64,000 nt of DNA from a virus. Below the pieces are notes generated by a model. That model was not told where the DNA came from and did not search any database. It saw only the letters and a program-made list of their open reading frames with translations. This document shows, piece by piece, positions 1 to 46,565 of the stretch. The position numbers were made by a program, and so were the translations under genes. The DNA is taken from the IMG/VR virus record IMGVR_UViG_3300035703_000006, positions 1 to 64,000 of that record; one strand, 5' to 3'. The stretch's first letter is position 1; every line of letters starts with the position of its first letter.

Positions 1-123
1 GATTTATATTACCCAGAATGGCATTACTCTTATGCTTTGGGTGAAACGAGAATAGGTAAAAACAAATCAGAAGTTGGAAACAAACCAAAAGAGTCTCACG
101 AGATTCTAGTGGTAAAAGTGTGA
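1..123 (+). CDS. C-terminal fragment of an unidentified protein (cut by window edge)
   Basis: The frame is open from base 1 to a TGA at 121-123 and gives 40 residues ending in SHEILVVKV. The start lies outside the window. The composition is ordinary and the downstream promoter module begins inside its last codons, so it looks like the end of a real gene. I do not recognise the family; a modification-enzyme C-terminus is conceivable but unsupported. Confidence 0.55.
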   Translation, partial: DLYYPEWHYSYALGETRIGKNKSEVGNKPKESHEILVVKV

Positions 124-177
124 CACTCGTAGCACTGGCACACTAAACCCCCACAGCACCCCCTGATGCCCTATAAT
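118..177 (+). promoter_or_regulatory. Palindrome + ACTAAA + -10 promoter module, copy 1 (degenerate left arm)
   Basis: The right arm ACTGGCAC ends at 141 and is followed by ACTAAA (142-147). TATAAT lies at 172-177, 30 nt from the start of the box. The left arm (118-127) matches the expected complement at 8 of 10 positions and overlaps the stop codon of the upstream gene. No good -35 hexamer is present. It should drive the gene starting at 204. Confidence 0.6.
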
Positions 178-203
178 ACAGGGACACAAGCAAAGGAGAC
201 CTG

Positions 204-455
204 ATGATTGCTTCTGAGGTGTTTCATTACACTACTTCCCGTTGGGATTGGATTGATTGTAATGTGAATCAGATGTGGATTGAAGAGATTGAGGAATCTC
301 CTGATTGTTACAAGTACGTTGCTGTTGCTTACAATCCTCGCAAGGATGCAAGTATGGTGATGAGTGAACCTCGTTGCTACGCAGATACCCTAAATTGGGT
401 TCGTAGTTGGTGCAATTCTTTCTGCATCCTTCCTGAGTTCTCTGTTGCTGTTTGA
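204..455 (+). CDS. Hypothetical small protein (83 aa)
   Basis: First gene after the TATAAT at 172-177, with GGAG about 6 nt before the ATG. It is rich in Trp, Cys and Tyr and has no motif I recognise. The next gene's ATG begins 2 nt after its stop. The repeat-module promoter and tight packing suggest an early accessory protein; no function is assigned. Confidence 0.7.
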   Translation: MIASEVFHYTTSRWDWIDCNVNQMWIEEIEESPDCYKYVAVAYNPRKDASMVMSEPRCYADTLNWVRSWCNSFCILPEFSVAV

Positions 456-457
456 TT

Positions 458-838
458 ATGACTTTCACCTTTCCTCGTGTTTCTGCTGGCATCTACGAAG
501 TCCAGAAGGATTCTAATACTGTTGGATTCATTCGTAAAGCAACTGCTTCTAAGTGGATTGTAACTGATGTTGTAGACACTCCTCAACACGTTACAAAGAC
601 TCTTAAGGATGCAAAGGATGCTTGTATCAACCTGATTATCTTTGAGAGTGTTGACAACACTCCTGAAGATGTGTATAATGACTCTGTGGAGGTTGATAAG
701 GTTAATGCTGAACTCAATAAGGTTCTTGAGGGTTCTTTGAGAACCTATAGGCAGATTCCTGGGACTGATGAGTTTGAGGAAGTATGTCCGAGTAAGTTTG
801 GATTTGCTGAACCTACTCTAGAACCTATTGTGTTCTAA
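458..838 (+). CDS. Hypothetical protein (126 aa)
   Basis: The ATG at 458 is chosen over an in-frame TTG at 452 that overlaps the previous stop. The protein begins MTFTFPRVSAGIYEVQ and looks like a small mixed alpha/beta domain, with a helical stretch near residues 50-65 (KTLKDAKDACINLIIF). Its stop overlaps the next ATG (TAATG), which implies translational coupling. The family is not recognised. Confidence 0.7.
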   Translation: MTFTFPRVSAGIYEVQKDSNTVGFIRKATASKWIVTDVVDTPQHVTKTLKDAKDACINLIIFESVDNTPEDVYNDSVEVDKVNAELNKVLEGSLRTYRQIPGTDEFEEVCPSKFGFAEPTLEPIVF

Positions 839-930
839 TGACTTATTTTGTAGTTTATTTGATACTTCTTAGTATCGCACTGGTTTTTAATTACTCTCTT
901 CATTCAGTTAATCCAAAGGACGACGATTAA
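838..930 (+). CDS. Tiny predicted membrane peptide (30 aa)
   Basis: A 30-residue frame starts in the TAATG overlap with the gene before it. Residues 3-18 (YFVVYLILLSIALVFN) form one hydrophobic segment, followed by a short polar tail ending KDDD. It is probably a single-pass inner-membrane peptide. Evidence is the coupled start, the clean hydrophobic pattern and the immediate start of another gene downstream. Confidence 0.5.
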   Translation: MTYFVVYLILLSIALVFNYSLHSVNPKDDD

Positions 931-931
931 A

Positions 932-1066
932 ATGCACGATTCTACTCTTGACCTGTTTTGTGAACACGAGTCTGCTGAGTATGCAGATGAGTATGCACTG
1001 GAGATTGAAAGGAAAGCAGCAGAACTTGAAGTAACTGTTGATTATTATATGGCAGAGTTTATGTGA
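932..1066 (+). CDS. Hypothetical acidic small protein (44 aa)
   Basis: The ATG lies 1 nt after the preceding stop. The product is strongly acidic and helical (CEHESAEYADEYALEIERKA). It ends just before a promoter at about 1101-1129. There is no recognised family; it is kept because of the tight spacing and coding-like composition. Confidence 0.5.
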   Translation: MHDSTLDLFCEHESAEYADEYALEIERKAAELEVTVDYYMAEFM

Positions 1067-1071
1067 TCTCT

Positions 1072-1129
1072 GTGCCACTTCTGAGACCGTCCAGCACTCT
1101 TCCCGAACTAACGGGAGGGGTGCTATAAT
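1072..1129 (+). promoter_or_regulatory. Promoter before the helicase gene, with small hairpin
   Basis: GTGCCACT at 1072-1079 resembles the left arm of the repeated palindrome but has no matching right arm. A separate hairpin TCCCG/CGGGA lies at 1101-1116. An extended -10, TGCTATAAT, lies at 1121-1129 with TATAAT at 1124-1129. The helicase ATG is 31 nt downstream. It appears to be a diverged member of the promoter family. Confidence 0.6.
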
Positions 1130-1159
1130 GTATGAATACAAACGTGATTTGATTTATTG

Positions 1160-2395
1160 ATGCTGACTCTTCTTCCTTATCAACAACGTGCTCTTGATGC
1201 TGTGCAGAAAGCAATCAGGGGTTCTGTCTATATTCCTACTGGTGGTGGGAAAACTGTTGTGATGATGGAAGATGCCCGTCAACGTGTTCTTAATGCACAA
1301 GAACCGATGACGTTTGTTGTTGTTGCACCTCGTATTCTGCTTGCAAATCAACTCTGTTCAGAGTTCGAAACATATCTCAAAGACCAGAATGTTGCTTATA
1401 TGCACGTTCATAGTGGAGAAACTCATCATCAATCCTCTACACGTCCAGCAGTCATTGCAGAATACAATGACATTGCAACTGGAAGTGGAAAGCATCAGTT
1501 TATCTTCACCACATACAATTCAATTCAACGGGTGAATGATGCAGATATTAACATTGATGTTGTGTATTTTGATGAAGCACATCATTGTGTGAAACCATCT
1601 AACTTTGTGGGTATTGCTCATACTTCAGCAGTTGCAGAAAATGCTTATTTCTTCACTGCAACTCCGAAGTTCAATAATAGCACTGAGTCAATGAATAATA
1701 CTGATGTTTATGGTAACAACATCATCAGTATTCCTGCACAAGAACTGATTGAAGCAGGTAGTATCATTCCTCCTAAAGTTGTGCCTTATGAAGCACAAAC
1801 GATTCGCACTAAGGAAAATGCTCCTTTTGTAGATGCAGAGAACATTGTAGGTATTCTGTCAGAGATTTCTGATTGTGATGCACCTAAAGTTCTTGTTGCT
1901 GCACCAAGTACCAAAGTGATTTGGTCTATGTTTACTGAAAGTGATTTGCTGCAACAACTCAATGATATGGGTTACACAATTATGCACATTACTTCTAAGC
2001 ATGGTGCTTATATCGACAAACAGAAAGTTTCTCGTGAAGTGTTCTTCGAGAAGATGAATGAGTTTGGTGCTGACCCAGACAAGAAGTTCATTGTGTTTCA
2101 CTATTCCATTCTGAGTGAAGGAATAAATGTTCATGGTTTGACTCATTGCATCATGCTTCGCAATCTTCCTGCGATTGAAATGTGTCAAACGATTGGTCGT
2201 GTGATTCGTATGCACCAAGATGACCGACAAGCAATCGCAGATGGTAAGATGAAAGCAGGAGAGTTTGCTTTTTACAGGAAACCTTTTGGTACTATTACGA
2301 TTCCTGTCAATAACAACTATGGTGATAAGATTGCAAAACAACTTCAGAATGTGATTGATGCAGTATTTGTAAAAGGTGAAGTTCCAGTTGCATAA
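1160..2395 (+). CDS. Superfamily 2 DNA/RNA helicase
   Basis: A 411-residue helicase in the cytoplasm, expected to couple ATP hydrolysis to unwinding or branch migration. Visible motifs in order are the Q-like LLPYQQRAL (4-12), Walker A PTGGGKT (26-32), motif Ia VVVAPRILLA (53-62), Walker B DEAH (138-141), motif III TATP (166-169) and motif VI QTIGRVIR near 343-350. Both RecA-like domains are complete. The T4 counterpart could be UvsW-like, but it may instead be another phage SF2 clade. The ATG at 1160 is preferred to a TTG one codon upstream. Confidence 0.9.
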   Translation: MLTLLPYQQRALDAVQKAIRGSVYIPTGGGKTVVMMEDARQRVLNAQEPMTFVVVAPRILLANQLCSEFETYLKDQNVAYMHVHSGETHHQSSTRPAVIAEYNDIATGSGKHQFIFTTYNSIQRVNDADINIDVVYFDEAHHCVKPSNFVGIAHTSAVAENAYFFTATPKFNNSTESMNNTDVYGNNIISIPAQELIEAGSIIPPKVVPYEAQTIRTKENAPFVDAENIVGILSEISDCDAPKVLVAAPSTKVIWSMFTESDLLQQLNDMGYTIMHITSKHGAYIDKQKVSREVFFEKMNEFGADPDKKFIVFHYSILSEGINVHGLTHCIMLRNLPAIEMCQTIGRVIRMHQDDRQAIADGKMKAGEFAFYRKPFGTITIPVNNNYGDKIAKQLQNVIDAVFVKGEVPVA

Positions 2396-2422
2396 ATTAT
2401 ATTATGTGTGACAAATAGAATT

Positions 2423-2587
2423 ATGCCTTTTACAAAGAAGTTTCCACAATCAGGAGAAACAATTCACATTCGAGTTCCAAAGTGTTATGCTGAACTAATT
2501 GAGGAATTGATGGTAACTTTAGATGCACGATTTGATGTAGAAAAAGGAAAACATCTTCTTCATAAGTTCATACACAATCTCACCTGA
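2423..2587 (+). CDS. Small protein, possible ribbon-helix-helix fold (54 aa)
   Basis: A 54-residue frame beginning MPFTKKFPQSGE. A short strand-like segment IHIRVPKC is followed by two amphipathic helices ending LLHKFIHNLT, an order consistent with a ribbon-helix-helix DNA-binding fold. It resembles the equally long product at 10936-11100 (RVP-x-C near the middle, LL..FI...H near the end). Function is inferred from this pattern only. Confidence 0.55.
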   Translation: MPFTKKFPQSGETIHIRVPKCYAELIEELMVTLDARFDVEKGKHLLHKFIHNLT

Positions 2588-2602
2588 GTCTTGAGAGTCG
2601 TT

Positions 2603-2659
2603 GTGCCAGTTGTAGTGGTGGCACACTAAATGAGCACTGACCCGTGATTGTGGTATAGT
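2603..2659 (+). promoter_or_regulatory. Palindrome + ACTAAA + -10 promoter module, copy 2
   Basis: GTGCCA (2603-2608) pairs with TGGCAC (2619-2624). ACTAAA follows at 2625-2630 and continues TGAGCAC at the -35 position. TATAGT lies at 2654-2659, 29 nt from the start of the box. It precedes the gene at 2684. Confidence 0.7.
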
Positions 2660-2683
2660 AGTTCTATGGTTGAGGAAGACCCG

Positions 2684-2851
2684 ATGACTTACGCACCACA
2701 CATTCCACATAACATTCCTTATTTGCTTGTTCCTGAGAATCGAGTAAAGTGTGTTTTTGATTGGTATAAGAGAGGGCAAGACCATCCAATGAACTTTCCT
2801 GCTTATGCTTATTGGATTCAAAAATGTGAAAGTGATGGGAGTGATTACTGA
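2684..2851 (+). CDS. Hypothetical small protein (55 aa)
   Basis: Start ATG 2684 (MTYAPHIPHNIPY) has a GAGGA ribosome site 8 nt upstream. A longer frame from a TTG at 2648 is rejected because it would run through the -10 box at 2654-2659. First gene of a tightly packed run (2684-3515). No recognised domain. Confidence 0.65.
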   Translation: MTYAPHIPHNIPYLLVPENRVKCVFDWYKRGQDHPMNFPAYAYWIQKCESDGSDY

Positions 2852-3043
2852 ATGACTACTCAAACTCTACTCAACAAAGTTCTAATGATTGAAGAATTGC
2901 TCAACGAAAAGCAACTCACTGCACTGCGTGATATGCTTTATGTGTATAAAGAACTTCAGAGTGAGGTTCATAATTATCCTCCTGAAGATACTTTGTTCAC
3001 TCAAACTCAATTTGAAATCTTTGACATTTTCGACATCAAATGA
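2852..3043 (+). CDS. Hypothetical small protein (63 aa)
   Basis: The ATG directly follows the preceding TGA. The product is largely helical (LLNKVLMIEELLNEKQLTAL) with a Phe/Asp/Ile-rich end (FEIFDIFDIK). Its stop overlaps the next start in ATGA, so translation is likely coupled. Function unknown. Confidence 0.65.
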   Translation: MTTQTLLNKVLMIEELLNEKQLTALRDMLYVYKELQSEVHNYPPEDTLFTQTQFEIFDIFDIK

Positions 3044-3249
3044 CTTCAATCTCTTTTACATCTGGTGAGTTGCTTGATATTATCAAAACACTTGAGGAAA
3101 AAGAAAATCTTGCCTACCTGGTAGATTATGACCCAGGACTTGCTGCTTATTATATGAATCTTGGAAATCAATTCCAAACAATCTATGATAAGTTGCAAGA
3201 ACTCCCTGGAGAGTCTAGAGTTGCCAATCTTGTCCTTGCTGTAAATTGA
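3040..3249 (+). CDS. Hypothetical small protein (69 aa)
   Basis: Starts in a 4-nt ATGA overlap with the previous gene. The sequence has an N-terminal helix LLDIIKTLEEKENLAYLV and a second helix around YDKLQEL. Its stop overlaps the next ATG. No family recognised. Confidence 0.65.
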   Translation: MTSISFTSGELLDIIKTLEEKENLAYLVDYDPGLAAYYMNLGNQFQTIYDKLQELPGESRVANLVLAVN

Positions 3250-3515
3250 TGATGGAAAAGCACAATCTGGTTATTCTTTCCACTGCACACCTGCATCCAT
3301 TGGAAGCAGCAAAGATTGATGAGTTTGCTTATGTTGGAAACAAAGAGTGTGCTCTTGTTAATACATCTCCAGAGATGAGAGATTTTTATTATCAAGGTGG
3401 ATTGGTTTGTTTGTGCGACCTTCTAAAAGAAGTGCAAGAAAAGCACAATGCAGATTATGTGTTGTTTGACCCCGATGCAAACACTACTGATGGGTTTAAG
3501 TATTATGATTGGTGA
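3249..3515 (+). CDS. Hypothetical protein (88 aa)
   Basis: Starts at the ATG embedded in TGATGATGG, overlapping the previous stop; ATG 3252 is an alternative. The product starts MMEKHNLVILSTAHLHPLEA and ends DGFKYYDW. It has a few His and Cys residues but no clear metal-binding spacing. Last gene of its run, followed by the next palindrome module. Confidence 0.65.
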   Translation: MMEKHNLVILSTAHLHPLEAAKIDEFAYVGNKECALVNTSPEMRDFYYQGGLVCLCDLLKEVQEKHNADYVLFDPDANTTDGFKYYDW

Positions 3516-3516
3516 T

Positions 3517-3575
3517 GTGCCAGTCGTAAAGGTGGCACATTAGACAATCCAATGGGGCACTTGATGCCCTATAAT
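3517..3575 (+). promoter_or_regulatory. Palindrome + box + -10 promoter module, copy 3
   Basis: GTGCCA (3517-3522) and TGGCAC (3533-3538) form the palindrome. The box reads ATTAGA (3539-3544) in place of ACTAAA. TATAAT is at 3570-3575, 31 nt from the start of the box. The sequence before it, TGATGCCC, is the same as in copy 1. The start codon used is ATG 3597. Confidence 0.65.
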
Positions 3576-3596
3576 GACTTCATACGCAACCAACTG

Positions 3597-3788
3597 ATGA
3601 CTTACGATGAAGTTTATGAAATGATTTGCCGTATGGAAACGTATGGTGGGTCATTTGTTGTTGCACTTGCTGGTGCAATGCGAAAAGCAGATGCCTCTAA
3701 TAAAAATAGATTGATTCTTGCATTTCCTGAATATGTGCAAGAATATGGTCCTGATAGCAAGTTCCCTGTCCCTACTAAGTCTCTGTGA
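3597..3788 (+). CDS. Conserved phage-type hypothetical protein (63 aa)
   Basis: ATG 3597 (MTYDEVYEMI) is chosen because the longer frame from 3552 crosses the TATAAT at 3570-3575. The segment ETYGGSFVVALAGAMRKAD followed by LILAFPEY resembles a short helical protein I remember from many phages, with no known function. It ends in a GTGA overlap with the next gene. Confidence 0.65.
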   Translation: MTYDEVYEMICRMETYGGSFVVALAGAMRKADASNKNRLILAFPEYVQEYGPDSKFPVPTKSL

Positions 3789-3958
3789 ACTACCTTTGTT
3801 TGGTTGATGGTCTGCTAGAATATGCTAGCACCAGTCCCTCAAACTTTGCACATTATCAGTTAATGTATTCTGAAGAGCATAGAAATGCTGATGTTCAGTT
3901 TCTTACTTTGACTGATGAGGAGTATGATGAAATGTTCCCTTATGAGGAGGATGAATGA
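3785..3958 (+). CDS. Hypothetical small acidic protein, GTG start (57 aa)
   Basis: The start is GTG in a 4-nt GTGA overlap with the previous gene. The product runs MNYLCLVDGLLEYASTSPSN and ends in an acidic tail (DEEYDEMFPYEEDE). Its stop overlaps the next gene in ATGA. Coupled starts on both sides support coding; no family recognised. Confidence 0.55.
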   Translation: MNYLCLVDGLLEYASTSPSNFAHYQLMYSEEHRNADVQFLTLTDEEYDEMFPYEEDE

Positions 3959-4134
3959 AACCTAAGTTCCGTGTTATTCTTGAAATGGCAATTGAACAAG
4001 GTGTTCAACGTGGTTGGCGTCTTGCTCATAAACATGTAGAGAATCCAGAAGAGCATGTAATCATTGAACGTATCAATGATTCTGTAATGTCTGAAATCTA
4101 CGAATACTTTACTTTTGAGGATGAGAATTTCTGA
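3955..4134 (+). CDS. Hypothetical small protein (59 aa)
   Basis: Starts in an ATGA overlap and ends in a TGATG overlap with the next gene. The sequence MKPKFRVILEMAIEQGVQRG has an amphipathic helix, followed by HKHVENPEEHVIIERI. Probably a small helical protein of the early cluster. Function unknown. Confidence 0.6.
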   Translation: MKPKFRVILEMAIEQGVQRGWRLAHKHVENPEEHVIIERINDSVMSEIYEYFTFEDENF

Positions 4135-4556
4135 TGTTGAAAACTAAAATGAATCCTGAAGTTAAGCAGAAGTGGATTGATGCTCTGCGTTCTGGTGATT
4201 ATGAGCAAGGTAGTGAGAAACTCCGTGGTGTAAATGGTTATTGTTGCCTTGGTGTTCTTTGTGACATTTATGCACGAGAACATGATACTCAATGGGAGTT
4301 CAGGGGTTATGATGAACTTAGTGATGAATCTAATCCACATCCAATGGATTATTGGTATTTTGATGACCAAAGTGAGTTTCTACCTAAAATTGTGATGAAT
4401 TGGGCAGGATTGAAAACTCATAATCCTTCAGTGAGAGTTGATATTGAAGATAATTTTGGTGATGATAATTCTTTTTATACCGATGAGATTGCCAATGTGA
4501 ACGATTCGGGTTATACTTTTATGGACCTTTCTAAAATTATCGAACAACAACTCTGA
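4134..4556 (+). CDS. Conserved phage hypothetical protein with VNGYCCLGVLCD motif (140 aa)
   Basis: The N-terminal part (EVKQKWIDALRSGDYEQG, then VNGYCCLGVLCDIYARE) is a signature I remember from many phage proteins of unknown function. They share a helix WxxALRSGxYxQ and a Cys-Cys-Leu-Gly-Val segment. The C-terminal half is acidic. Stop and next ATG overlap in TGATG. Function is not established. Confidence 0.75.
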   Translation: MLKTKMNPEVKQKWIDALRSGDYEQGSEKLRGVNGYCCLGVLCDIYAREHDTQWEFRGYDELSDESNPHPMDYWYFDDQSEFLPKIVMNWAGLKTHNPSVRVDIEDNFGDDNSFYTDEIANVNDSGYTFMDLSKIIEQQL

Positions 4557-4744
4557 TGCAAGAAGATAACACTCTGTCTCAAGGACGCATTGCAACTCAC
4601 AAATCTGTGAATGTTGCTATCTATTTCAATGATGAAATGGATGATGGTGAAGTGCGAGACTTCATTGAACGTGCCCTTGAAAAGTATCAACATCCAGATG
4701 ACATTGTGAAAAACTATGAATACTGGTATGATGTTGAGTCTTAA
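4556..4744 (+). CDS. Hypothetical small protein (62 aa)
   Basis: Starts at the ATG overlapping the previous TGA. Residues 20-50 (NVAIYFNDEMDDGEVRDF, then RALEKYQHPDDI) suggest one strand followed by an acidic helical part. It ends 8 nt before promoter module copy 4. Function unknown. Confidence 0.6.
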   Translation: MQEDNTLSQGRIATHKSVNVAIYFNDEMDDGEVRDFIERALEKYQHPDDIVKNYEYWYDVES

Positions 4745-4752
4745 GTGAGAAT

Positions 4753-4811
4753 GTGCCAGTTGTAGCACTGGCACACTATATCCCCCAAACCCCTGCTGGT
4801 GGTGCTATGAT
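4753..4811 (+). promoter_or_regulatory. Palindrome + box + -10 promoter module, copy 4 (perfect 8-bp arms)
   Basis: GTGCCAGT (4753-4760) and ACTGGCAC (4767-4774) form a perfect 8-bp stem with a 6-nt loop. The box reads ACTATA (4775-4780). An extended -10, TGCTATGAT, has its TATGAT at 4806-4811. The first transcribed bases resemble those at the promoter at 9078. It should drive the ArdA-like gene. Confidence 0.7.
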
Positions 4812-4832
4812 GAACGGAGTTCAAAGAAACCA

Positions 4833-5264
4833 ATGATCTCTCTGCGGAATCCAATTATGGAAATCAACTACAAAGAAGTTTATTCTCAGAAAACTGCGAA
4901 TAAAATTGAAGAATTGGTTGCTGAATCTTATTGTCTTGAGGACATTGTAGAGTTCATTGAAGAAAACTCTGAAGAAGATTTCTGTAATCTTTATGAAGAG
5001 TATGTGAATGTTGGTGAGCAGTATTCTTATGGTGCTGTAGATGCCTTCATTGAAGAGTTTGGTCTTCAATCTTTCACTGCCACTTGCTTTGAAGATGCTT
5101 ACCGAGGACAATGGGAATCTAAAGCAGATTATGCTGAAAACTATGTCACTGATTGTTATTCTATAGATCTGCCTGGTTTCCTGGAGATTGACTGGGAAGC
5201 AACATTTGATAATCTGGATGTGACCATCACTGAGAATGGTTATGTGTTCGACACTCAATTCTGA
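4833..5264 (+). CDS. ArdA-like antirestriction protein (DNA mimic)
   Basis: A 143-residue, strongly acidic protein. The C-terminal half matches the ArdA pattern: FEDAYRGQWESKADYAENYV near residues 90-109, then LPGFLEIDWEATFDNL and a terminal YVFDTQF. ArdA proteins mimic bent B-form DNA and block type I restriction enzymes in the host cytoplasm. It is slightly shorter than typical ArdA (about 165-170 aa) and the N-terminal part is less recognisable. ATG 4833 is used, with ATG 4857 as an alternative. It is first in an operon driven by promoter module 4. Confidence 0.65.
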   Translation: MISLRNPIMEINYKEVYSQKTANKIEELVAESYCLEDIVEFIEENSEEDFCNLYEEYVNVGEQYSYGAVDAFIEEFGLQSFTATCFEDAYRGQWESKADYAENYVTDCYSIDLPGFLEIDWEATFDNLDVTITENGYVFDTQF

Positions 5265-5267
5265 ACT

Positions 5268-5420
5268 ATGAAACTTTATCTTCAAGACAAGGCAGTTGAA
5301 TTGATTCTCTATTGCTTGGAACAACAAGCAAGTGAGTTCAATGAGGAAGAAATGAAGGATTATGAACATATCCTTCATTCCATTGAAATTGCAAATGATT
5401 CTGTTGATTTCAATTTCTAA
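5268..5420 (+). CDS. Hypothetical small protein, LEQQ family (50 aa)
   Basis: A 50-residue helical acidic protein starting 3 nt after the ArdA-like gene. Its segment LILYCLEQQASEFNEEE closely matches LILFTLEQQESDFNSVE in the gene at 10226-10387, so the two are likely paralogs. Its TAA overlaps the next ATG. Function unknown. Confidence 0.6.
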   Translation: MKLYLQDKAVELILYCLEQQASEFNEEEMKDYEHILHSIEIANDSVDFNF

Positions 5421-5686
5421 TGATGCCTGATTTTCCTACAATTCAATCTAAGGATGGCACTATGATAGTGTCATTTTATCCAGTCAAAACACCATTTGGT
5501 GATATATCTGAGACCTGGACATTTAAGGTTCTTGAGTGGAAAGGTATTGAGACAATCTCCAAGAGGTTCATTAACAAAGTTGAGAAAAAAGTTCAACTTA
5601 GGGAATATGAATCTTTTGGTTATGTTTTTGTAAAAGACAATGCGGATCTTCCGCAACTTGGTAATCCTATGGCAGGTGCTGTGTAA
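5420..5686 (+). CDS. Hypothetical protein (88 aa)
   Basis: Starts at the ATG in a TAATG overlap; ATG 5423 is an alternative. Predicted beta-rich from alternating hydrophobic stretches (GTMIVSFYPV, ISETWTFKVLEW). It ends with a TAATG overlap to the next gene, so the group 5268-5901 appears translationally chained. No family recognised. Confidence 0.65.
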   Translation: MMPDFPTIQSKDGTMIVSFYPVKTPFGDISETWTFKVLEWKGIETISKRFINKVEKKVQLREYESFGYVFVKDNADLPQLGNPMAGAV

Positions 5687-5901
5687 TGTTATTTCAATTA
5701 ACTGATATTGAGTTTGATTTTGATGATGGTGAGGAAATCTCTGGAGAACTTCCTTATGATGAACAAGTTGCAGTTGCTCAATCTGTCATTGGTGAAGTTT
5801 TTGATGTCGAATCTGAAGATGACCTTGCCGATGCAGTTAGTGATTACACTGGTTGGTGTGTGAAATCTCTTAATTATGTTGCAATCTCTGAATCTCACTG
5901 A
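5686..5901 (+). CDS. Hypothetical acidic protein (71 aa)
   Basis: Coupled to the previous gene by TAATG. The protein is very acidic (FDFDDGEEISGELPYDE) and ends with DYTGWCVKSLNYVAI. That ending resembles a D-x-T/S-G-W-C motif I associate with small proteins of cyanobacteria and their phages. Function unknown. Confidence 0.65.
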   Translation: MLFQLTDIEFDFDDGEEISGELPYDEQVAVAQSVIGEVFDVESEDDLADAVSDYTGWCVKSLNYVAISESH

Positions 5902-5902
5902 A

Positions 5903-6097
5903 ATGCCTGAAATGAATCGTGACCAACTGATTGAAGACTATATCCAGACACTCATTGAGAATATGGACTATAAGACAATGGAGTGTTTTGTTTATGATAC
6001 TCTGAAAGAGAATCTTTCTACCTACACTGATGAGGAACTTCTCACTGAAGTGGAAGAATACAATCCAGAACTCCTCGGTCTAGACGAATCTGCCTGA
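5903..6097 (+). CDS. Hypothetical acidic protein (64 aa)
   Basis: ATG 5903 (MPEMNRDQLIEDYIQ) lies just after the previous stop; ATG 5912 is equally possible. An in-frame ATG at 5876 would overlap the previous gene by 26 nt and is less likely. The product is helical and acidic (CFVYDTLKENLSTYTDEEL). Function unknown. Confidence 0.6.
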   Translation: MPEMNRDQLIEDYIQTLIENMDYKTMECFVYDTLKENLSTYTDEELLTEVEEYNPELLGLDESA

Positions 6098-6112
6098 GTC
6101 TAGTGTTGAGAT

Positions 6113-6197
6113 GTGCCACTTGTTCTAGTGGCACACTAAATGAGCACAGACCCCAAAAGGTGCTATATTAAGAGGGTGGAAGGGGTCAGACCCACCC
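6113..6197 (+). promoter_or_regulatory. Palindrome + ACTAAA + -10 promoter module, copy 5, with 5'-UTR GGGTGG hairpin
   Basis: Perfect 8-bp arms GTGCCACT (6113-6120) and AGTGGCAC (6127-6134) are followed by ACTAAATGAGCAC from 6135. TATATT is at 6164-6169 within TGCTATATT, 29 nt from the start of the box. At the predicted RNA 5' end GGGTGG (6174-6179) can pair with CCACCC (6192-6197). The gene it serves starts at 6227. Confidence 0.75.
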
Positions 6198-6226
6198 ACA
6201 AACGTCCAAACTCTATCTTAATCAAA

Positions 6227-6430
6227 ATGACTGCTGTTGTTGATTTCTCTAAGGATGTGATGCTCGGTATGCTTCGCAAGGGGCAAACTGGAACTCAGAT
6301 TCTGGACATTCTGAATGTTCTGGTTCCTGAGCAAACTGAACTCACTCGTGAGCAAGTTTGTGAGGATCTGGGCATTGCTGATTGTCCCGAGAATGATGAT
6401 GAGATTGCCCGTGCAATGTCTGCTGTCTGA
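6227..6430 (+). CDS. Hypothetical small protein (67 aa)
   Basis: Start ATG 6227 (MTAVVDFSKDVMLGMLRKG) lies about 50 nt downstream of the predicted RNA start. The longer frame from 6140 is rejected because it includes the -10 box. It is helical, with a possible helix-turn-helix-like region (GTQILDILNVLV, then TREQVCEDLGI), but this is weak. It is one of three genes sharing the GGGTGG leader. Confidence 0.65.
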   Translation: MTAVVDFSKDVMLGMLRKGQTGTQILDILNVLVPEQTELTREQVCEDLGIADCPENDDEIARAMSAV

Positions 6431-6528
6431 GTGATTAAATAGAAACGATAGAGGGCAAGTCCCTGTTATGTCCTGATGAGGCATATCACACTTGCTCCAT
6501 CAAAACAATTCCTTCATTATTGAAACCA

Positions 6529-6717
6529 ATGTTTGTTATTTGTCCCGCATCATTTGATCTGGTTGATGCAGAGTGGTTTGATAATGTTTATGAAGCAAAA
6601 GAAGAAGCACTCGACTGGAGTGTTGAACTTGCTGGTCGCAATGTGATTGTTTATGAGGCACTTGAAGATGATGATGGTGCTTATGACTTCAAACCCGTAA
6701 GTTCAATCTGTGCTTGA
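6529..6717 (+). CDS. Hypothetical small protein (62 aa)
   Basis: ATG 6529 (MFVICPASFDLVDAEWFDN) is used instead of a TTG three codons upstream. The alternating pattern (NVYEAKEEALDWSVELAG, then NVIVYEALE) suggests a small alpha/beta domain. Its TGA overlaps the next ATG. The 98-nt gap before it holds a long imperfect hairpin, GGGCAAGT pairing with ACTTGCTC. Confidence 0.6.
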   Translation: MFVICPASFDLVDAEWFDNVYEAKEEALDWSVELAGRNVIVYEALEDDDGAYDFKPVSSICA

Positions 6718-6863
6718 TGAAGACCTTAACATTCAAGGCACCAAATAAGATGAAGACTATAATTCTTATCTTTGCAGTTGCTTTTGTATTCTCTCCTGGA
6801 GTGCGAAATGCAACTGCAAATACTCTTTACAATGTTGCTGACATTATCAGCACAAATCGGTGA
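6717..6863 (+). CDS. Small protein with one membrane segment or signal peptide (48 aa)
   Basis: Starts in a TGATG overlap with the previous gene. After a basic N-terminus (KTLTFKAPNKMKT) comes a hydrophobic segment IILIFAVAFVFSPG near residues 15-28. A short polar tail follows (NATANTLYNVADIISTNR). It could be an exported peptide or a single-pass membrane protein. Internal ATG at codon 12 would give a shorter classical signal-like start. Confidence 0.5.
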   Translation: MKTLTFKAPNKMKTIILIFAVAFVFSPGVRNATANTLYNVADIISTNR

Positions 6864-6878
6864 GTCCAGTGTTGAGAT

Positions 6879-6963
6879 GTGCCACCTGTAGCACTGGCAC
6901 ACTAAACGGGCACTGGAACTTTTTTCTGGTAGATTAAGAGGGTGGAGGGGGTCAGTCCCACCC
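6879..6963 (+). promoter_or_regulatory. Palindrome + ACTAAA + -10 promoter module, copy 6, with 5'-UTR GGGTGG hairpin
   Basis: GTGCCA (6879-6884) and TGGCAC (6895-6900) are followed directly by ACTAAA (6901-6906). A weak -10, TAGATT, lies at 6930-6935, again 29 nt from the box. GGGTGG (6940-6945) and CCACCC (6958-6963) form the leader hairpin 10 nt after the -10 start, as in copies 5 and 7. It serves the DUF2786 gene at 6988. Confidence 0.65.
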
Positions 6964-6987
6964 GAGTCCCAATCTCAATTCTTTACA

Positions 6988-7644
6988 ATGGATCGCACTC
7001 AAGTTATTGCAAAGATTCAGTCCATTCTGAAACTGCAAGAGAACACTACGTTTGATGGTGAAGCATCTGCTGCTGCTGCGATGATTGATAAACTCTGCAA
7101 GCAGTATGGTGTTACGATCAGTGAAGCAACTGAAACTCAAGTTCTCGATGAATCTTTTCTCAACTTCAAACGTGTAAATGTTGCACTGACAACTCTTCTC
7201 AATGCAATTGCATCTTTCTATGATGCAAAAGCATATATGAAGAATGGTGATACCAAATCTCTGCAAGTGATTGGTTCTGAAGCACAACAAATCCAAGTGC
7301 GTCTCTATTATGATTACCTGGTGCAGGTGATGGAGAAAGAAGCAGAAGTTGCACATCAAGCAGAAAAGATTATGTCTGCTCTGCAAGGTAAAGCAATGTC
7401 CCGTAGTTTCAAACTTAATTTCCGCAAGGCATTTGCAGATAATGTTGCTCTGCGTTTGCGTGAGATGAAAGAAGCAGAGGGACGAGTTCATGATGATGCT
7501 GATGCAGTGAAAAACAAACTCTCTGCAATGCGATTCGGACGTGCCAAGAAGATGAATGGTGCAAGTGGTGCTGGTGTTGGTAGTTCTGTTTCTTTGAATC
7601 GTCAAGCAACTGGTTCTGTGACCAAACAACTCTGTGGAGTGTGA
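6988..7644 (+). CDS. DUF2786-domain protein
   Basis: A 218-residue protein. The N-terminal 45 residues (IAKIQSILKLQENTTFDGEA, then MIDKLCKQYGVT) match the pattern of DUF2786: a helical start, a run where every few residues is Ala, and the end of the domain at LCKQYGVTI. DUF2786 proteins occur in phages and bacteria and their role is unknown. The middle is helical and rich in Lys/Glu, and the C-terminus is basic and Gly/Ser-rich. The stop codon lies inside a strong terminator. Confidence 0.75.
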   Translation: MDRTQVIAKIQSILKLQENTTFDGEASAAAAMIDKLCKQYGVTISEATETQVLDESFLNFKRVNVALTTLLNAIASFYDAKAYMKNGDTKSLQVIGSEAQQIQVRLYYDYLVQVMEKEAEVAHQAEKIMSALQGKAMSRSFKLNFRKAFADNVALRLREMKEAEGRVHDDADAVKNKLSAMRFGRAKKMNGASGAGVGSSVSLNRQATGSVTKQLCGV

Positions 7645-7663
7645 GTTTCACACTCCTTTTTTT
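7636..7663 (+). terminator. Rho-independent terminator after the DUF2786 gene
   Basis: GGAGTGTGA (7636-7644) pairs perfectly with TCACACTCC (7648-7656) around a 3-nt loop, followed by seven T (7657-7663). The left arm includes the stop codon of the gene it terminates. Confidence 0.9.
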
Positions 7664-7684
7664 CCTTTAATTTTTTGATACGAG

Positions 7685-8017
7685 ATGAACGCACAACTTT
7701 CGATTGATGAGTGTAAAATTATGTGGGTTGTTGGAGCACTTGAACGACTTGCAACTTTAGGTTTGCTTGGTCCTGATGTTCCACTGAAACTTTCTGCTCA
7801 TGCAGTAGAAGATTATATTCAGATTGACGAGCATCGGGAACTTTTGTTTGAGTCAGATTTTGAGATTGCAAGTATTATGACTGCACTGATCAATGATGAA
7901 TGTGATCCAGAAGTTCAAGATCCTGAAGATACAAATCTTCTGATTGATCTTCTGCTAGAGTATAAGAATAATCGCACTGAGATTGTGAAGTATGCACTCT
8001 CTTATCAACTCATCTGA
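7685..8017 (+). CDS. Hypothetical helical protein (110 aa)
   Basis: The gene starts 22 nt after the terminator T-tract, with no clear promoter of its own, so some read-through is likely. The product is acidic and mostly helical (VGALERLATLGLLG, then DLLLEYKNNRTEIVKYAL). It ends 16 nt before the next palindrome module. No family recognised. Confidence 0.65.
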   Translation: MNAQLSIDECKIMWVVGALERLATLGLLGPDVPLKLSAHAVEDYIQIDEHRELLFESDFEIASIMTALINDECDPEVQDPEDTNLLIDLLLEYKNNRTEIVKYALSYQLI

Positions 8018-8032
8018 GTCCAATGATACCCT

Positions 8033-8125
8033 GTGCCACTTGTACTGGTGGCACACTAAATGAGCACGGGGTTAAAAATGTGGTATTATTAAAGGGTGGA
8101 GGGAGCAGGGGTGCCTGTCCCACCC
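8033..8125 (+). promoter_or_regulatory. Palindrome + ACTAAA + -10 promoter module, copy 7, with 5'-UTR GGGTGG hairpin
   Basis: GTGCCACT (8033-8040) pairs with GGTGGCAC (8047-8054) with one wobble. ACTAAATGAGCAC starts at 8055. TATTAT lies at 8084-8089, 29 nt from the start of the box. GGGTGG (8094-8099) and CCACCC (8120-8125) form the leader hairpin. The gene starts at 8149. Confidence 0.7.
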
Positions 8126-8148
8126 ACGAGACCCATTGTTTATTCTTT

Positions 8149-8727
8149 ATGACTTCTTTCACGATTGTTAAAAAAGGTGAAGAAATCAAGTTTGATTCTC
8201 AATTCACTGATGTGAATGAAGTGCGTAACTATCTGCGTGAGCAGATGTCTTACAACAACTTCGCAATGGATCTTGTTGAGAAGAAGAAAGTGTCTGCAAC
8301 TCAAATTGCTTGGATGCATTATCTTGCAACTCAAAGTGTAATTGATTCTCAAACTCCTGTTGAGTTTGGTCCTTACAAGCAACTTGTCAACAAGATGTAT
8401 GATGCAGGTGCATATCGAGCAACTAAGTTTCAAGTGCGACTGCCTGGAATTACTCTGAGCACTGTAACTAAAGGTGTCAATGTTGGTTGTGTTTATGTTT
8501 ATGAAAACAACCAATATGTTGGTAAAATTACTGCTACTGGTGATCTGATTGGTAACGTGAGTGAGGATGTTATCAATCTTCTGGAAGATGCCAATGATAA
8601 TCTCCTGCAACTGGCAAAGATTTATGGTCACGAGACTGGTACTTGTTCAATCTGTGCTCGCACACTGAATGATCCTCTCTCTGTTCAGATGGGAATTGGT
8701 CCTGTTTGTGCCAAACGACTCGGTTGA
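8149..8727 (+). CDS. Protein with C-terminal DUF6011-like zinc motif (192 aa)
   Basis: ATG 8149 (MTSFTIVKKGEEIKF) is used; the longer frame from 8023 would cross the promoter. The C-terminus reads GTCSICARTLNDPLSVQMG then IGPVCAKRLG. This CxxCxRxLxDPxS...GxGPxC pattern is that of DUF6011-type small zinc-binding domains, where the cysteines are expected to bind one Zn. The first 150 residues are unrecognised. It could bind nucleic acid, but that is inference. Confidence 0.7.
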   Translation: MTSFTIVKKGEEIKFDSQFTDVNEVRNYLREQMSYNNFAMDLVEKKKVSATQIAWMHYLATQSVIDSQTPVEFGPYKQLVNKMYDAGAYRATKFQVRLPGITLSTVTKGVNVGCVYVYENNQYVGKITATGDLIGNVSEDVINLLEDANDNLLQLAKIYGHETGTCSICARTLNDPLSVQMGIGPVCAKRLG

Positions 8728-10714: not shown

Positions 10715-10771
10715 TGAGACTCACGATACTCAAACCACTTCAAAAACTGGCACATCGTATCATGAGTCTCA
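10715..10771 (+). repeat. Second hairpin with related TGAGTC/GACTCA arms
   Basis: TGAGACTCA (10715-10723) pairs with TGAGTCTCA (10763-10771), and GATA/TATC extend the stem inside. The GACTCA core is shared with the hairpin at 10661-10697, so both may derive from one element or bind the same factor. Confidence 0.5.
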
Positions 10772-10884
10772 CAGATTCGGGTGTAGACTTATAGGGTGGG
10801 TGGCAGAGGGAAGATCATCAAATACTGATAACTGATAAGAATTACCCAGAATCCAGTGATTGCAATACTTTTTCGGGGCATTAT

Positions 10885-10935: not shown

Positions 10936-11100
10936 ATGAGACCTCAAAAGTATAAGAATTTAGGTGAAACTGAAAGAATGCGTGTACCCTTATGCAAGCA
11001 AATTACAAGTTTGTGTGATGCATTAGATAAAAAAGCAGAAGATGGTTATGATGTCGTTGCTTTATTAGATTCGTTCATTGAGAGCATACACAATATGTGA
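10936..11100 (+). CDS. Small protein, possible ribbon-helix-helix fold (54 aa), late-controlled
   Basis: Begins MRPQKYKNLGETERMRVPLC and continues with two helices (ITSLCDALDKKAEDGYDVVA, then LLDSFIESIHN). It matches the 54-residue protein at 2423-2587 in length and in the RVP-x-C and LL..FI...H positions. It sits alone between two non-coding stretches, directly behind the inverted repeat with the late promoter. A DNA-binding regulator is plausible but unproven. Confidence 0.6.
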   Translation: MRPQKYKNLGETERMRVPLCKQITSLCDALDKKAEDGYDVVALLDSFIESIHNM

Positions 11101-45000: not shown

Positions 45001-46565
45001 CAGATGGATTTGGAAAAAATCTAATTTTAACTATACCAAATAATCCTGGAATTATTTCTTCCTTCAATTCAATTCTTATTGATAATATTCAAGGAAAAGT
45101 GAATACATCTGGTTCATATACGTTGACAAATAATGGTTCAGAATTAACTAGTGCAACAGTAGTCAGTTCTCTTGAATTGACTAACGGATTATACTTTAAA
45201 GTCAATCACAATAATCATGGAATGTATGCAGCAAATAATCAAGTAATCTTAAGTGGAATTGAATCTGATTATTCTCCAGAAACTTTGGTAAGTGACTATT
45301 CTTCTACATCTACTGATAATATTGTAGTTTCTTCTGGTTCTATATTTGCAACTTTTGAAAATGTTGGAGTTGCATCAACAAATCCAGGATATGTTTTAAT
45401 TGATCAAGAAATTATTAAATATACTGGAGTTTCTGGAAATTCATTAACTGGAATAACAGGAAACAGAGGAATAGATGGAACAATACCAACTTTACATAAG
45501 GCAAAATCTTTAGTATTTAAATATGAAATGAATGGCATTTCATTAAGGAGAATTAATAAAACTCACACATTTACTGATGTCGATGTAAGTAATTATCCTA
45601 TTGAAATGGATTCTTATTATTTGAAAGTTGACACATCATCCAAAACAGGGACAGATAGAACTGCTGGAAGTGCTGTTGGACCAGAACTATTTTTCAATCA
45701 ATCAAAATCTTGTGGTTCGTATTTATCTAACACACCACAACTAAATTCATTAATTGGTCCAAAAGCAACTCAAAACATAGTATTTAATAATGTCAGACCA
45801 AACATAATCACAATGTTGCCAAATATGACCTCAATAGATACCAAATTAAGGACAACATCTGCGACTAGTGTAAATGGAACTGAATTGTCATTTTTTGATG
45901 CTGGTTTTGATAATATTTCTTTGAATTCAAATAATGAATTTAATTCGGTAAGAATGATATGCTCCAAGGTCAATGAAGAATTTCATTTAAATTCTTTACC
46001 TGGAAATAAATCATTGACGATTGAATTATCTTTACAAACAAATGATTCTAAGGTTTCTCCTGTAATTGATTTTGATCGTGTAAGTTTAATTACAACTATG
46101 AATAGAATTGATTCCCCTGTCAAAAATTACTTATCTGATCCAAGAATCAATCAACTGACTGGTGATCCAAATTCTGCAATTTACTTATCAAAGATAGTAA
46201 AGTTAGAAAAATCATCAGATAATTTAAAAGTTTTATTCGATGCATATAGAAATAAATCTAATGATTTTAGAGTTCTATATCGTTTATTGAGAAATGATAC
46301 TCCAGATGAACAGCAAGTGTGGGAGTTTTTCCCAGGTTATGATAATTTAGATCAAAATAGCAATGTTATAGATCCATCTAAAAACAATGGAAAACCAGAT
46401 AGATTTGTGCCATCATCTAATACTATAGATGATTATGGAAATTATGAATTTACCGCAAAAAATTTACCACTATTCAATGGATTTCAAATTAAAATTATTA
46501 TGGCAGGAACAAATCAGGCACAAGTTCCCTACATTAAAGATCTTCGCATTATTGCAACAATATGA
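39093..46565 (+). CDS. Giant DUF4815-like virion structural protein, downstream of gp8 (gp10 region)
   Basis: 2490 residues. The first 350 (VSPYFDDFSDQKGYQRVLFK, GTPIQSRELTTLQSILQNQI and GQIGYDDQYYSVQIDESH) match the N-terminal domain of DUF4815-type phage structural proteins. It contains at least one GxGY repeat (ITNGGSGYKIGDTLTI) and a GYVLIDQEIIKYTG module near 2083-2143. T4 has gp9 and gp10 in this position, so it may be a fused or expanded wedge/pin protein. Beta-rich, non-cytoplasmic, no membrane segment. Confidence 0.7.
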   Translation: MPQNTNLNVSPYFDDFSDQKGYQRVLFKPGTPIQSRELTTLQSILQNQIEKFGKHFFKEGSVVIPGQIGYDDQYYSVQIDESHLGIPVSSYIEKFIGKSIQGETSGITAVVENYITNEESERGNYTLYVKYKNSSSTNFTTRTFIDGENLISLEDVDYTLSAIQRNTSFATAIISNSTSIGSAAKIEEGVYFIRGFFLNVKKQTIILNQYDNKPSYRVGLFIDEEIAVSSNSYNDLFDNAQGFSNYSAPGADRLKISLSLIKKPLDDFNDENFVELMRLNSGILIKFVNDSDYNLLKNEFARRTYDESGDYYIKPFNVHLKESLNDKIGNNGIYSEKQKTTQGNVPSDDLSCLSISPGKAYVRGYEIETISNISVDIEKPRTTEKVSNSSVPFNIGRKIIVNNVFGSIPVGFGTTSQVSLYSDRTSTVGVSSGSKIGVARVYDFKLKNSEYSNAATQFELFLYDIQTYTKLTLNSTLTSLSTPAFIEGKSSGASGYLVSNVSNSSELILYQVSGSFISNEQLKSNGEDLDRVVSSLTDYNLSDVHQIIANETTGIGTFTSDPLLSLQTLLAPSGAQFSISSGGVVKSGQENFYVGIKVGDIVSYTKQGDIVPTYNKVSAISTSGKTITITPTTSVSGICSGSLPASDIAVNDFKKVSLEILNNQNAFLYSKLSDSNVSNVDLTGSEIIIRKSYQIPSSSFSSGSYSQVLETDPNLTLLPFDEEDYNLSFSDGVTPPLDDQKLTISGRTISIQGISPNSNSSILTATFKKINTSSRKKIYNRCSSLIVNKTLSGINTSTNGLTKSNIYGLRVEDKEISLNVPEVERIIGVYESSTSSDPVLPNITLTNLNSNILNLVKGERIIGNDSNAVAVVVSSNSTNIVELSYLNENLFYIGENVTFEESKVSGKIDSIIVGDRNIKNNYILDEGQRLEYLDFSRIIRKNEFSPPTKKLKIIFNNYTINSADDGDLVSVDSYDKERYGKNISFVGSNSLSDVIDLRPRVSSYSGVYSPFEYQSRNFETINSSKNIFSNNKDINLSYEYYLPRIDKLYLNKYGIFFLNKGVPSKEPKEPNSLDSSLEVATIRLPAYLYNTEDASIILSPHKRYTMRDVSKLEDRIKNIEYYTSLSLLESDTQNLSIRDPQTKLDRFKCGFFVDNFRSYNGGQIRNRDYKSSIDTANGILRPPHYTTSIDLLIGSESVIGLGSVTNPNADLRFVDDFGSPNIKKIGSQLLLNYSEIEYVKNIFATRSENVNPFHVINWIGSIELNPSSDTWIETRRTDRTIDIEGSYQQAIQQLGVDTNTGLSPIDWNSWETNWTGESISNGPELGRLLQGSTNLGTTTNDPGGGRRLVTDTTTFRDNFLTFSEQTVTRTGTSTRNGIQFRVSEKFDSTNLGDRVVSREIIKKMRSRNIEIIARRLKPSSRFYCFFDSVDLTSYVVPKLLEVSMVSGTFSSGETIVGTLGSKSIKFRLSQQNHKYGPYNSPTEVYTENPYQPSNLLSNSYSSTTTILNVDTASLSINSESNFYGSVIQGMQIVGQTSNAIATISDIRLISDSSGVFIGSLLIPDSTIPSTPSFETGTKTLVLTTSSTNSTVITSNESTAETNFYSEGALDNVENSTLRIKNANIERLPRTESILASETETNLVADTTSVTRTTQSQRWVDPLAQSFEVADRNGVFITKCDIYFKTKDTKGIPVTLQIRTMRDGTPTQEILPFGEVVLNAKDVNISEDGTIPTTFTFSSPIYLEPVGSGYAIALVSSSNEYNVWISRMGETDISTINNPDSEKVIVSQQPTLGSLFKSQNGSTWEPSQLEDLKFTLYRANFVTSPASIRFYNPELAVGNNQIVSLRPNPINTNSNSALVGIGTSLSSAQQSSLVVGNTISQTSNTNFTGKLKSLVGAIGINSTLTLTNSGIGFTSGPKVYSNINLVTLSGFGNNAKVNLSVSGGVAVAATITNGGSGYKIGDTLTINSSDTDGFGKNLILTIPNNPGIISSFNSILIDNIQGKVNTSGSYTLTNNGSELTSATVVSSLELTNGLYFKVNHNNHGMYAANNQVILSGIESDYSPETLVSDYSSTSTDNIVVSSGSIFATFENVGVASTNPGYVLIDQEIIKYTGVSGNSLTGITGNRGIDGTIPTLHKAKSLVFKYEMNGISLRRINKTHTFTDVDVSNYPIEMDSYYLKVDTSSKTGTDRTAGSAVGPELFFNQSKSCGSYLSNTPQLNSLIGPKATQNIVFNNVRPNIITMLPNMTSIDTKLRTTSATSVNGTELSFFDAGFDNISLNSNNEFNSVRMICSKVNEEFHLNSLPGNKSLTIELSLQTNDSKVSPVIDFDRVSLITTMNRIDSPVKNYLSDPRINQLTGDPNSAIYLSKIVKLEKSSDNLKVLFDAYRNKSNDFRVLYRLLRNDTPDEQQVWEFFPGYDNLDQNSNVIDPSKNNGKPDRFVPSSNTIDDYGNYEFTAKNLPLFNGFQIKIIMAGTNQAQVPYIKDLRIIATI

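Follow-up and report, generated by a model that had tools for sequence, protein, structure and literature searches.

The opening 64,000 nucleotides of the IMG/VR virus record IMGVR_UViG_3300035703_000006 (the window), a record of 247,112 bases whose remainder was scanned as well, contain a repeated module in which a palindrome, GTGCCA-N10-TGGCAC, lies upstream of a sigma70-type -10 hexamer at a near-fixed distance, raising the question of what the palindrome does at these promoters and what reads it. A first-pass annotation of the sequence had described seven such modules, each comprising a palindrome, an ACTAAA-like box and a promoter. The exact palindrome occurs six times in the window (copies 2 to 7 below) against 0.01 expected, and none of 100 shuffled sequences reached six; copy 1 adds a seventh, GTGACACTCGTAGCACTGGCAC, with a single arm mismatch. 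The seven modules, with the palindrome designated as the operator and the next open reading frame (ORF) given for each, are as follows.

120-177, + strand: module copy 1, operator 120-141 (left arm GTGACA), ACTAAA, -10 TATAAT at 172-177; next ORF 204-455.
2603-2659, + strand: module copy 2, operator 2603-2624, ACTAAATGAGCAC, extended -10 TATAGT at 2654-2659; next ORF 2666-2851.
3517-3575, + strand: module copy 3, operator 3517-3538, ATTAGA, -10 TATAAT at 3570-3575; next ORF 3597-3788.
4753-4811, + strand: module copy 4, operator 4753-4774, ACTATA, -10 TATGAT at 4806-4811; next ORF 4833-5264 (ArdA-like antirestriction).
6113-6169, + strand: module copy 5, operator 6113-6134, ACTAAATGAGCAC, extended -10 TATATT at 6164-6169; next ORF 6227-6430.
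6879-6935, + strand: module copy 6, operator 6879-6900, ACTAAACGGGCAC, extended -10 TAGATT at 6930-6935; next ORF 6988-7644.
8033-8089, + strand: module copy 7, operator 8033-8054, ACTAAATGAGCAC, extended -10 TATTAT at 8084-8089; next ORF 8149-8727.

From the end of the palindrome to the -10 hexamer the distance is 29 nt in copies 2, 5, 6 and 7, 30 nt in copy 1 and 31 nt in copies 3 and 4. The box that follows the palindrome reads ACTAAA except in copy 3 (ATTAGA) and copy 4 (ACTATA), and the ACTAAATGAGCAC of copies 2, 5 and 7 places TGAGCA 17 nt from the -10. A TGn precedes the -10 in five of the seven, while neither a TTGACA-like -35 nor a U-run after the palindrome was found in any of them; copy 6 has a T6 run further down its spacer. 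These measurements agree with the first-pass annotation in the number of modules, in their spacing, in the three ACTAAATGAGCAC copies, in the extended -10 of several copies and in the lack of both a standard -35 and a U-run. Its copy starts hold for six copies and fail for copy 1, whose in-register start is 120 and not 118.

The same arrangement is found well beyond this phage. When IMG/VR was scanned for palindromes with a TATAAT downstream, the module was recovered in at least 120 stretches. Among the matches listed, -10-like hexamers lay at offsets 29, 30 and 31 in 34, 149 and 66 cases (249 in sum), where background offsets give 5.7 each (about 17 for three); as this sample was selected for TATAAT within a 23-33 window, the sharpness of the peak is informative and its total is biased. 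When nine complete phage genomes were examined without that selection, 37 of 48 palindromes with at most one arm mismatch had a -10-like hexamer at 29-31 nt on at least one side, where 4.7 were expected. An ATG ORF began within 150 nt on the promoter side of 171 of 181 sites in the IMG/VR stretches, again among the matches listed, versus 70 on the other side, and a shuffled-genome control for the combined score returned 0 sites at the threshold of 20. The module is present in S-PM2, Syn9, P-SSM2, P-SSM4, P-SSM7, S-SSM7, S-CRM01 and others, and the site also occurs in P-HM1. A stricter pattern matched P-SSM2, P-SSM7, S-SSM7, Syn1, S-T4, S-SRM01, S-SCSM2R and this phage, together with a single, unchecked match in S-RSM4; because specific bases are required at central and outer positions, it passes over Syn9 and S-RIM2, both of which were found by looser searches. 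The stricter pattern gave zero matches in T4, the pelagiphage HTVC008M, Ma-LMM01, P-SSP7, PSS2 and S-SM2, and its reversed control gave zero in all phages. Relatives, to which the first-pass annotation had looked for the same spacing, keep it at 29-31 nt across the T4-like cyanophages, whose hosts are cyanobacteria of ocean and freshwater, and the module is a promoter class of these phages. Of 225 palindromes among the IMG/VR matches listed, 34 are flanked on each side by a -10 at 29-31 nt (e.g. L056, L058), which is above chance, and one operator seems to serve divergent promoters.

The operator consensus is TGTGCCA(S)TT-N4-AA(S)TGGCACA, a 24-bp pseudo-palindrome. Setting the -10 at -12 to -7 places its 22-bp core at about -64 to -43 and its centre at about -53.5, upstream of the -35 position. 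The promoter-proximal half-site, AACTGGCACA, is the better kept and persists in sites whose distal half has decayed. After thinning for relatedness, 94 sites show a weak -35, with 28 matching TTGACA at four or more of six positions (about 11 expected), and 23 carry a TGn ahead of the -10 (6.6 expected). Many copies combine a weak -10, such as TAGATT, TATTCT or TAGACT, with no -35. The ACTAAA box had been taken for a general part of the module; it belongs instead to a subclass that carries A(C/G)TAAANGRGCACAGACC after the operator, found in at least 119 stretches and represented in the window by copies 2, 5 and 7 and nearly by copy 6. As the best -10 lies at offset 29-30 in 26 of 27 thinned members, ACTAAA-TGAGCAC counts as a genuine second element of this subclass and no universal box.

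Several promoters show additional features around the core. At P-SSM2 53915 and S-CRM01 78851, 82966 and 146096, an intrinsic terminator between operator and -10 replaces the -35, with the 29-31 nt spacing retained. Four Syn9 promoters (46339, 48608, 51050 and 53046, their -10 boxes beginning at 46342, 48611, 51053 and 53049) have a common GTGTATTCTATA(A/G)GAGT around the -10 and start, with a weak, uniform -10, and a search across genomes found a rigid downstream element such as TATTCT-NAAGAG in Syn9 and S-SKS1. In copies 5-7 of the window, a GGGTGG...CCACCC inverted repeat is common to the transcript starts (6170-6200, 6936-6966 and 8090-8128) and recurs in IMG/VR relatives; folding of this repeat in the 5' untranslated region was no better than that of shuffled sequences.

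Scanning of the whole record revealed nine more in-register copies beyond the first seven, mostly degenerate in the outer arm and all on the + strand. Eight of these lie at 224,578-245,548, and seven of the eight have an ATG ORF 21-45 nt from the -10. The 16 sites in this orientation are confined to 224-247 kb and 1-11 kb, with no site scoring 20 or more elsewhere in the genome, and the single extra match on the - strand comes from reading the palindrome at 3517 in reverse. Because the genomes of T4-like phages are circularly permuted, the two site-bearing ends probably join. Two further sites lie in the window, the first of which the first-pass annotation had missed and the second of which is upstream of a helicase gene (1160-2395).

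10732-10789, + strand: degenerate copy, proximal half AACTGGCACA intact, distal half poor, -10 TAGACT at 10784-10789.
1072-1129, + strand: possible half-site copy, left half-site GTGCCACTT at 1072, TATAAT about 52 nt downstream (1124-1129), right arm out of register.

What such an operator might do is suggested by its position and by the weak core promoter beside it, both of which point to activation rather than repression. We consider it probable that the operator is an activator site at early-type phage promoters, at which a dimeric protein carried or encoded by the phage contacts host RNA polymerase. The promoter would then consist of a -10 of sigma70 type, often extended, beside a -35 that is weak or missing; the operator, held at a stereospecific distance with its centre near -53.5, would be bound by a sequence-specific protein, most likely a dimer; and the bound protein would touch host RNA polymerase and so switch on operons of early-type genes. 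Of the earlier description of an activator-dependent promoter class, the promoter class of fixed geometry stands, and the activator dependence is probable in view of the weak -35 and the operator position.

This arrangement can be compared with two known systems. P2 and P4 late promoters dependent on Ogr (Delta) have a TGT...ACA dyad near -55, a sigma70 -10 and no good -35, and are served by a small phage activator that touches polymerase. The present promoters are alike in the position of the dyad (about -53.5), the sigma70 -10 and the poor -35, and by this analogy the reader is most likely a dimeric activator touching polymerase from -53.5. They differ in sequence and spacer, and Ogr/Delta itself was rejected as the binder, its family (PF04606) giving no match over the cut-off in any of nine records. 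The T4 middle promoters activated by MotA and AsiA, to which the layout had first been likened, also pair a sigma70 -10 that is often extended with an upstream box peculiar to the phage, and have no -35. The likeness does not hold for the box itself, as the MotA box lacks palindromic symmetry and takes the place of the -35, at -30/-35, whereas the 24-bp pseudo-palindrome lies upstream of it; nor for the proteins, since T4 encodes both MotA and AsiA and neither family was found in this phage, P-SSM2, S-PM2 or S-CRM01 (T4 positive control, 3e-63 and 2e-43). The only MotA match in Syn9 was sub-threshold and had an internal stop.

Four points weigh against an activator borne by the phage. A Pfam search of 56 conserved ORFs of this phage returned no DNA-binding regulator. 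An AbrB/MazE-like protein (the Syn9 gp92 family) was rejected as the regulator, being absent from S-CRM01, P-HM1 and S-SCSM2R, all of which bear the site. Some copies, e.g. in S-SSM7, have good TATAAT and TTG -35 elements and might need no activation. Finally, for promoters active from the moment of entry, the activator would have to come from the host or be borne by the virion. The AbrB/MazE-like family had been attractive because AbrB favours TGGNA repeats, and small stand-alone AbrB/MazE-like forms occur in Syn9 (gp92), S-PM2, P-SSM2, S-SKS1 and many IMG/VR loci; this phage has an ORF with an AbrB/MazE-like C-terminal domain at genome positions 213892-214617 (L012:14392-15117). Two 54-residue ORFs, at 2423-2587, adjoining copy 2, and at 10936-11100, look ribbon-helix-helix-like by eye and have no family match. 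The former was rejected as the regulator, being confined to close relatives.

The strict distance between operator and -10 suggests contact with RNA polymerase without giving its sign, and an early protein encoded by the phage could equally supply a repressor, the hosts being without the site. It is nevertheless unlikely that the operator binds such a repressor to shut the promoters later in infection, with the fixed spacing reflecting repression through polymerase contact, as the operator lies clear of the -35, the -10 and the start, which are the usual sites of repression, and the many weak -10 hexamers without a -35 favour a need for help.

Early promoters must work with unmodified host machinery, and cyanophages have been proposed to exploit host NtcA (Sullivan et al. 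2010; PMC3037559), so that a host transcription factor might read the site and the phage exploit its regulon. Against this, a relaxed form of the operator was found in only two of the 299 genomes that represent the host order (that of a Cyanobium metagenome-assembled genome (MAG)), and the strict operator had 13 exact matches in 84,980 prokaryote species genomes, one of which lies on a contig that shows the promoter geometry of the phages. In host genomes the site occurs about as often as chance predicts, leaving a host regulon unsupported, and the motif differs both from the GTA-N8-TAC of NtcA and from the Pho box. We regard a host reader as improbable; the lack of the site in host genomes, taken with the operator's drift from one phage lineage to another, points to a protein borne by the phage. 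A Flavobacteriales MAG (TMED113; L148, contigs C52 and C54 of G003) carries ten palindromes on few contigs, one with phage promoter geometry, and these are probably mis-binned phage contigs.

The palindrome could also act as RNA, in the form of a hairpin that terminates or processes the transcript of the upstream operon and is joined to the promoter that follows. As RNA, single copies fold well (z down to -4.4), the modules sit between operons, terminator-like hairpins fill the spacer in a few copies, and the depositors of the S-CRM01 record (HQ615693.1, 125862-125891) labelled one operator as a Rho-independent terminator. The palindrome is, however, without a trailing U-run, keeps a fixed distance to the -10, and in degenerate copies retains only the promoter-proximal arm well. 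Moreover, positions 7 and 16 are anti-complementary: in the 94 thinned sites they form Watson-Crick pairs at a frequency of 0.21 versus 0.41 in shuffles (none of 3000 as low), being mostly G..G and C..C, with the same result when one site per contig was used. Stems paired at 7/16, 8/15 and 9/14 together were seen in 9 of 312 sites, where the product of the three pair frequencies predicts about 27. As position pair 7/16 is anti-complementary and perfect stems are depleted, the palindrome is taken to work as duplex DNA with its perfectly symmetric form disfavoured, either because binding may depend on the half-sites being unlike or because long perfect stems may be harmful. The anti-complementarity led us to dismiss the hairpin or terminator, which we judge very improbable. 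A sigma54 promoter (TGGCAC-N5-TTGC, with GG and GC 10 bp apart at -24/-12) was rejected, the spacing being 12 in ACTAAATGAGCAC copies and a TATAAT-type -10 following.

The hairpin proposal resembles the promoter early stem-loop (PeSL) cassettes of T4-like phages (Comeau et al. 2014; Arbiol et al. 2010), which are cited in PMC4503421 and likewise combine a repeated intergenic palindrome with an early-type promoter among small variable ORFs. They differ from the module in that the palindrome here is constrained as DNA and stands at a fixed distance from the -10; as a terminator stem-loop it is disfavoured by the lack of a U-run, the anti-complementary pair 7/16 and the depletion of perfect stems.

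Returning to the activator, a more specific proposal is possible, if doubtful: a protein of an unknown family, brought in by the virion or synthesised directly after entry, would drive early transcription in T4-like cyanophages by reading half-sites that have to be unlike (GTGCCAG paired with GTGCCAC) and docking polymerase at -53.5, with TAAANGRGCACAGACC as a second conserved element replacing the -35 in the subclass.

The genes behind these promoters bear on their timing. Copy 4 stands directly before the ArdA-like antirestriction gene (PHROG match at 4e-22; under the Pfam cut-off). Four copies in Syn9 head clusters of small ORFs (gp63-, gp73-, gp78- and gp90-) ahead of baseplate genes, many copies in P-SSM2 lie in the region matching these clusters, and copies in S-CRM01 precede tRNA clusters. 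By their content (antirestriction, tRNA clusters and groups of tiny ORFs of takeover type), the operons behind the modules look early, and the middle-type class originally assigned to these promoters is not supported.

A novel regulatory element of Syn9 early genes, conserved in T4-like cyanophages and metagenomes, has reportedly been described, and the promoter class is probably already known as this 'early-gene element'. The two are alike in phage group, in the early-type Syn9 clusters and in conservation across T4-like cyanophages and metagenomes, which the module also displays; the geometry, the 7/16 pattern and the GRGCAC subclass may or may not be part of what was published. The study concerned, Doron et al. 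2016, is cited by other papers for temporal classes and for the lack of motA and asiA. The precise geometry of the operator, its unlike half-sites, the GRGCAC subclass and the case against a host factor may be new here.

The same sites have been annotated at least once as terminators, in S-CRM01, and the operator provides a simple marker of such promoters in environmental viral DNA. T4-like cyanophages are without MotA and AsiA; with its fixed place at the promoter, its presence in most cultured members checked and its absence from the hosts, the operator offers a direct bait for the missing regulator.

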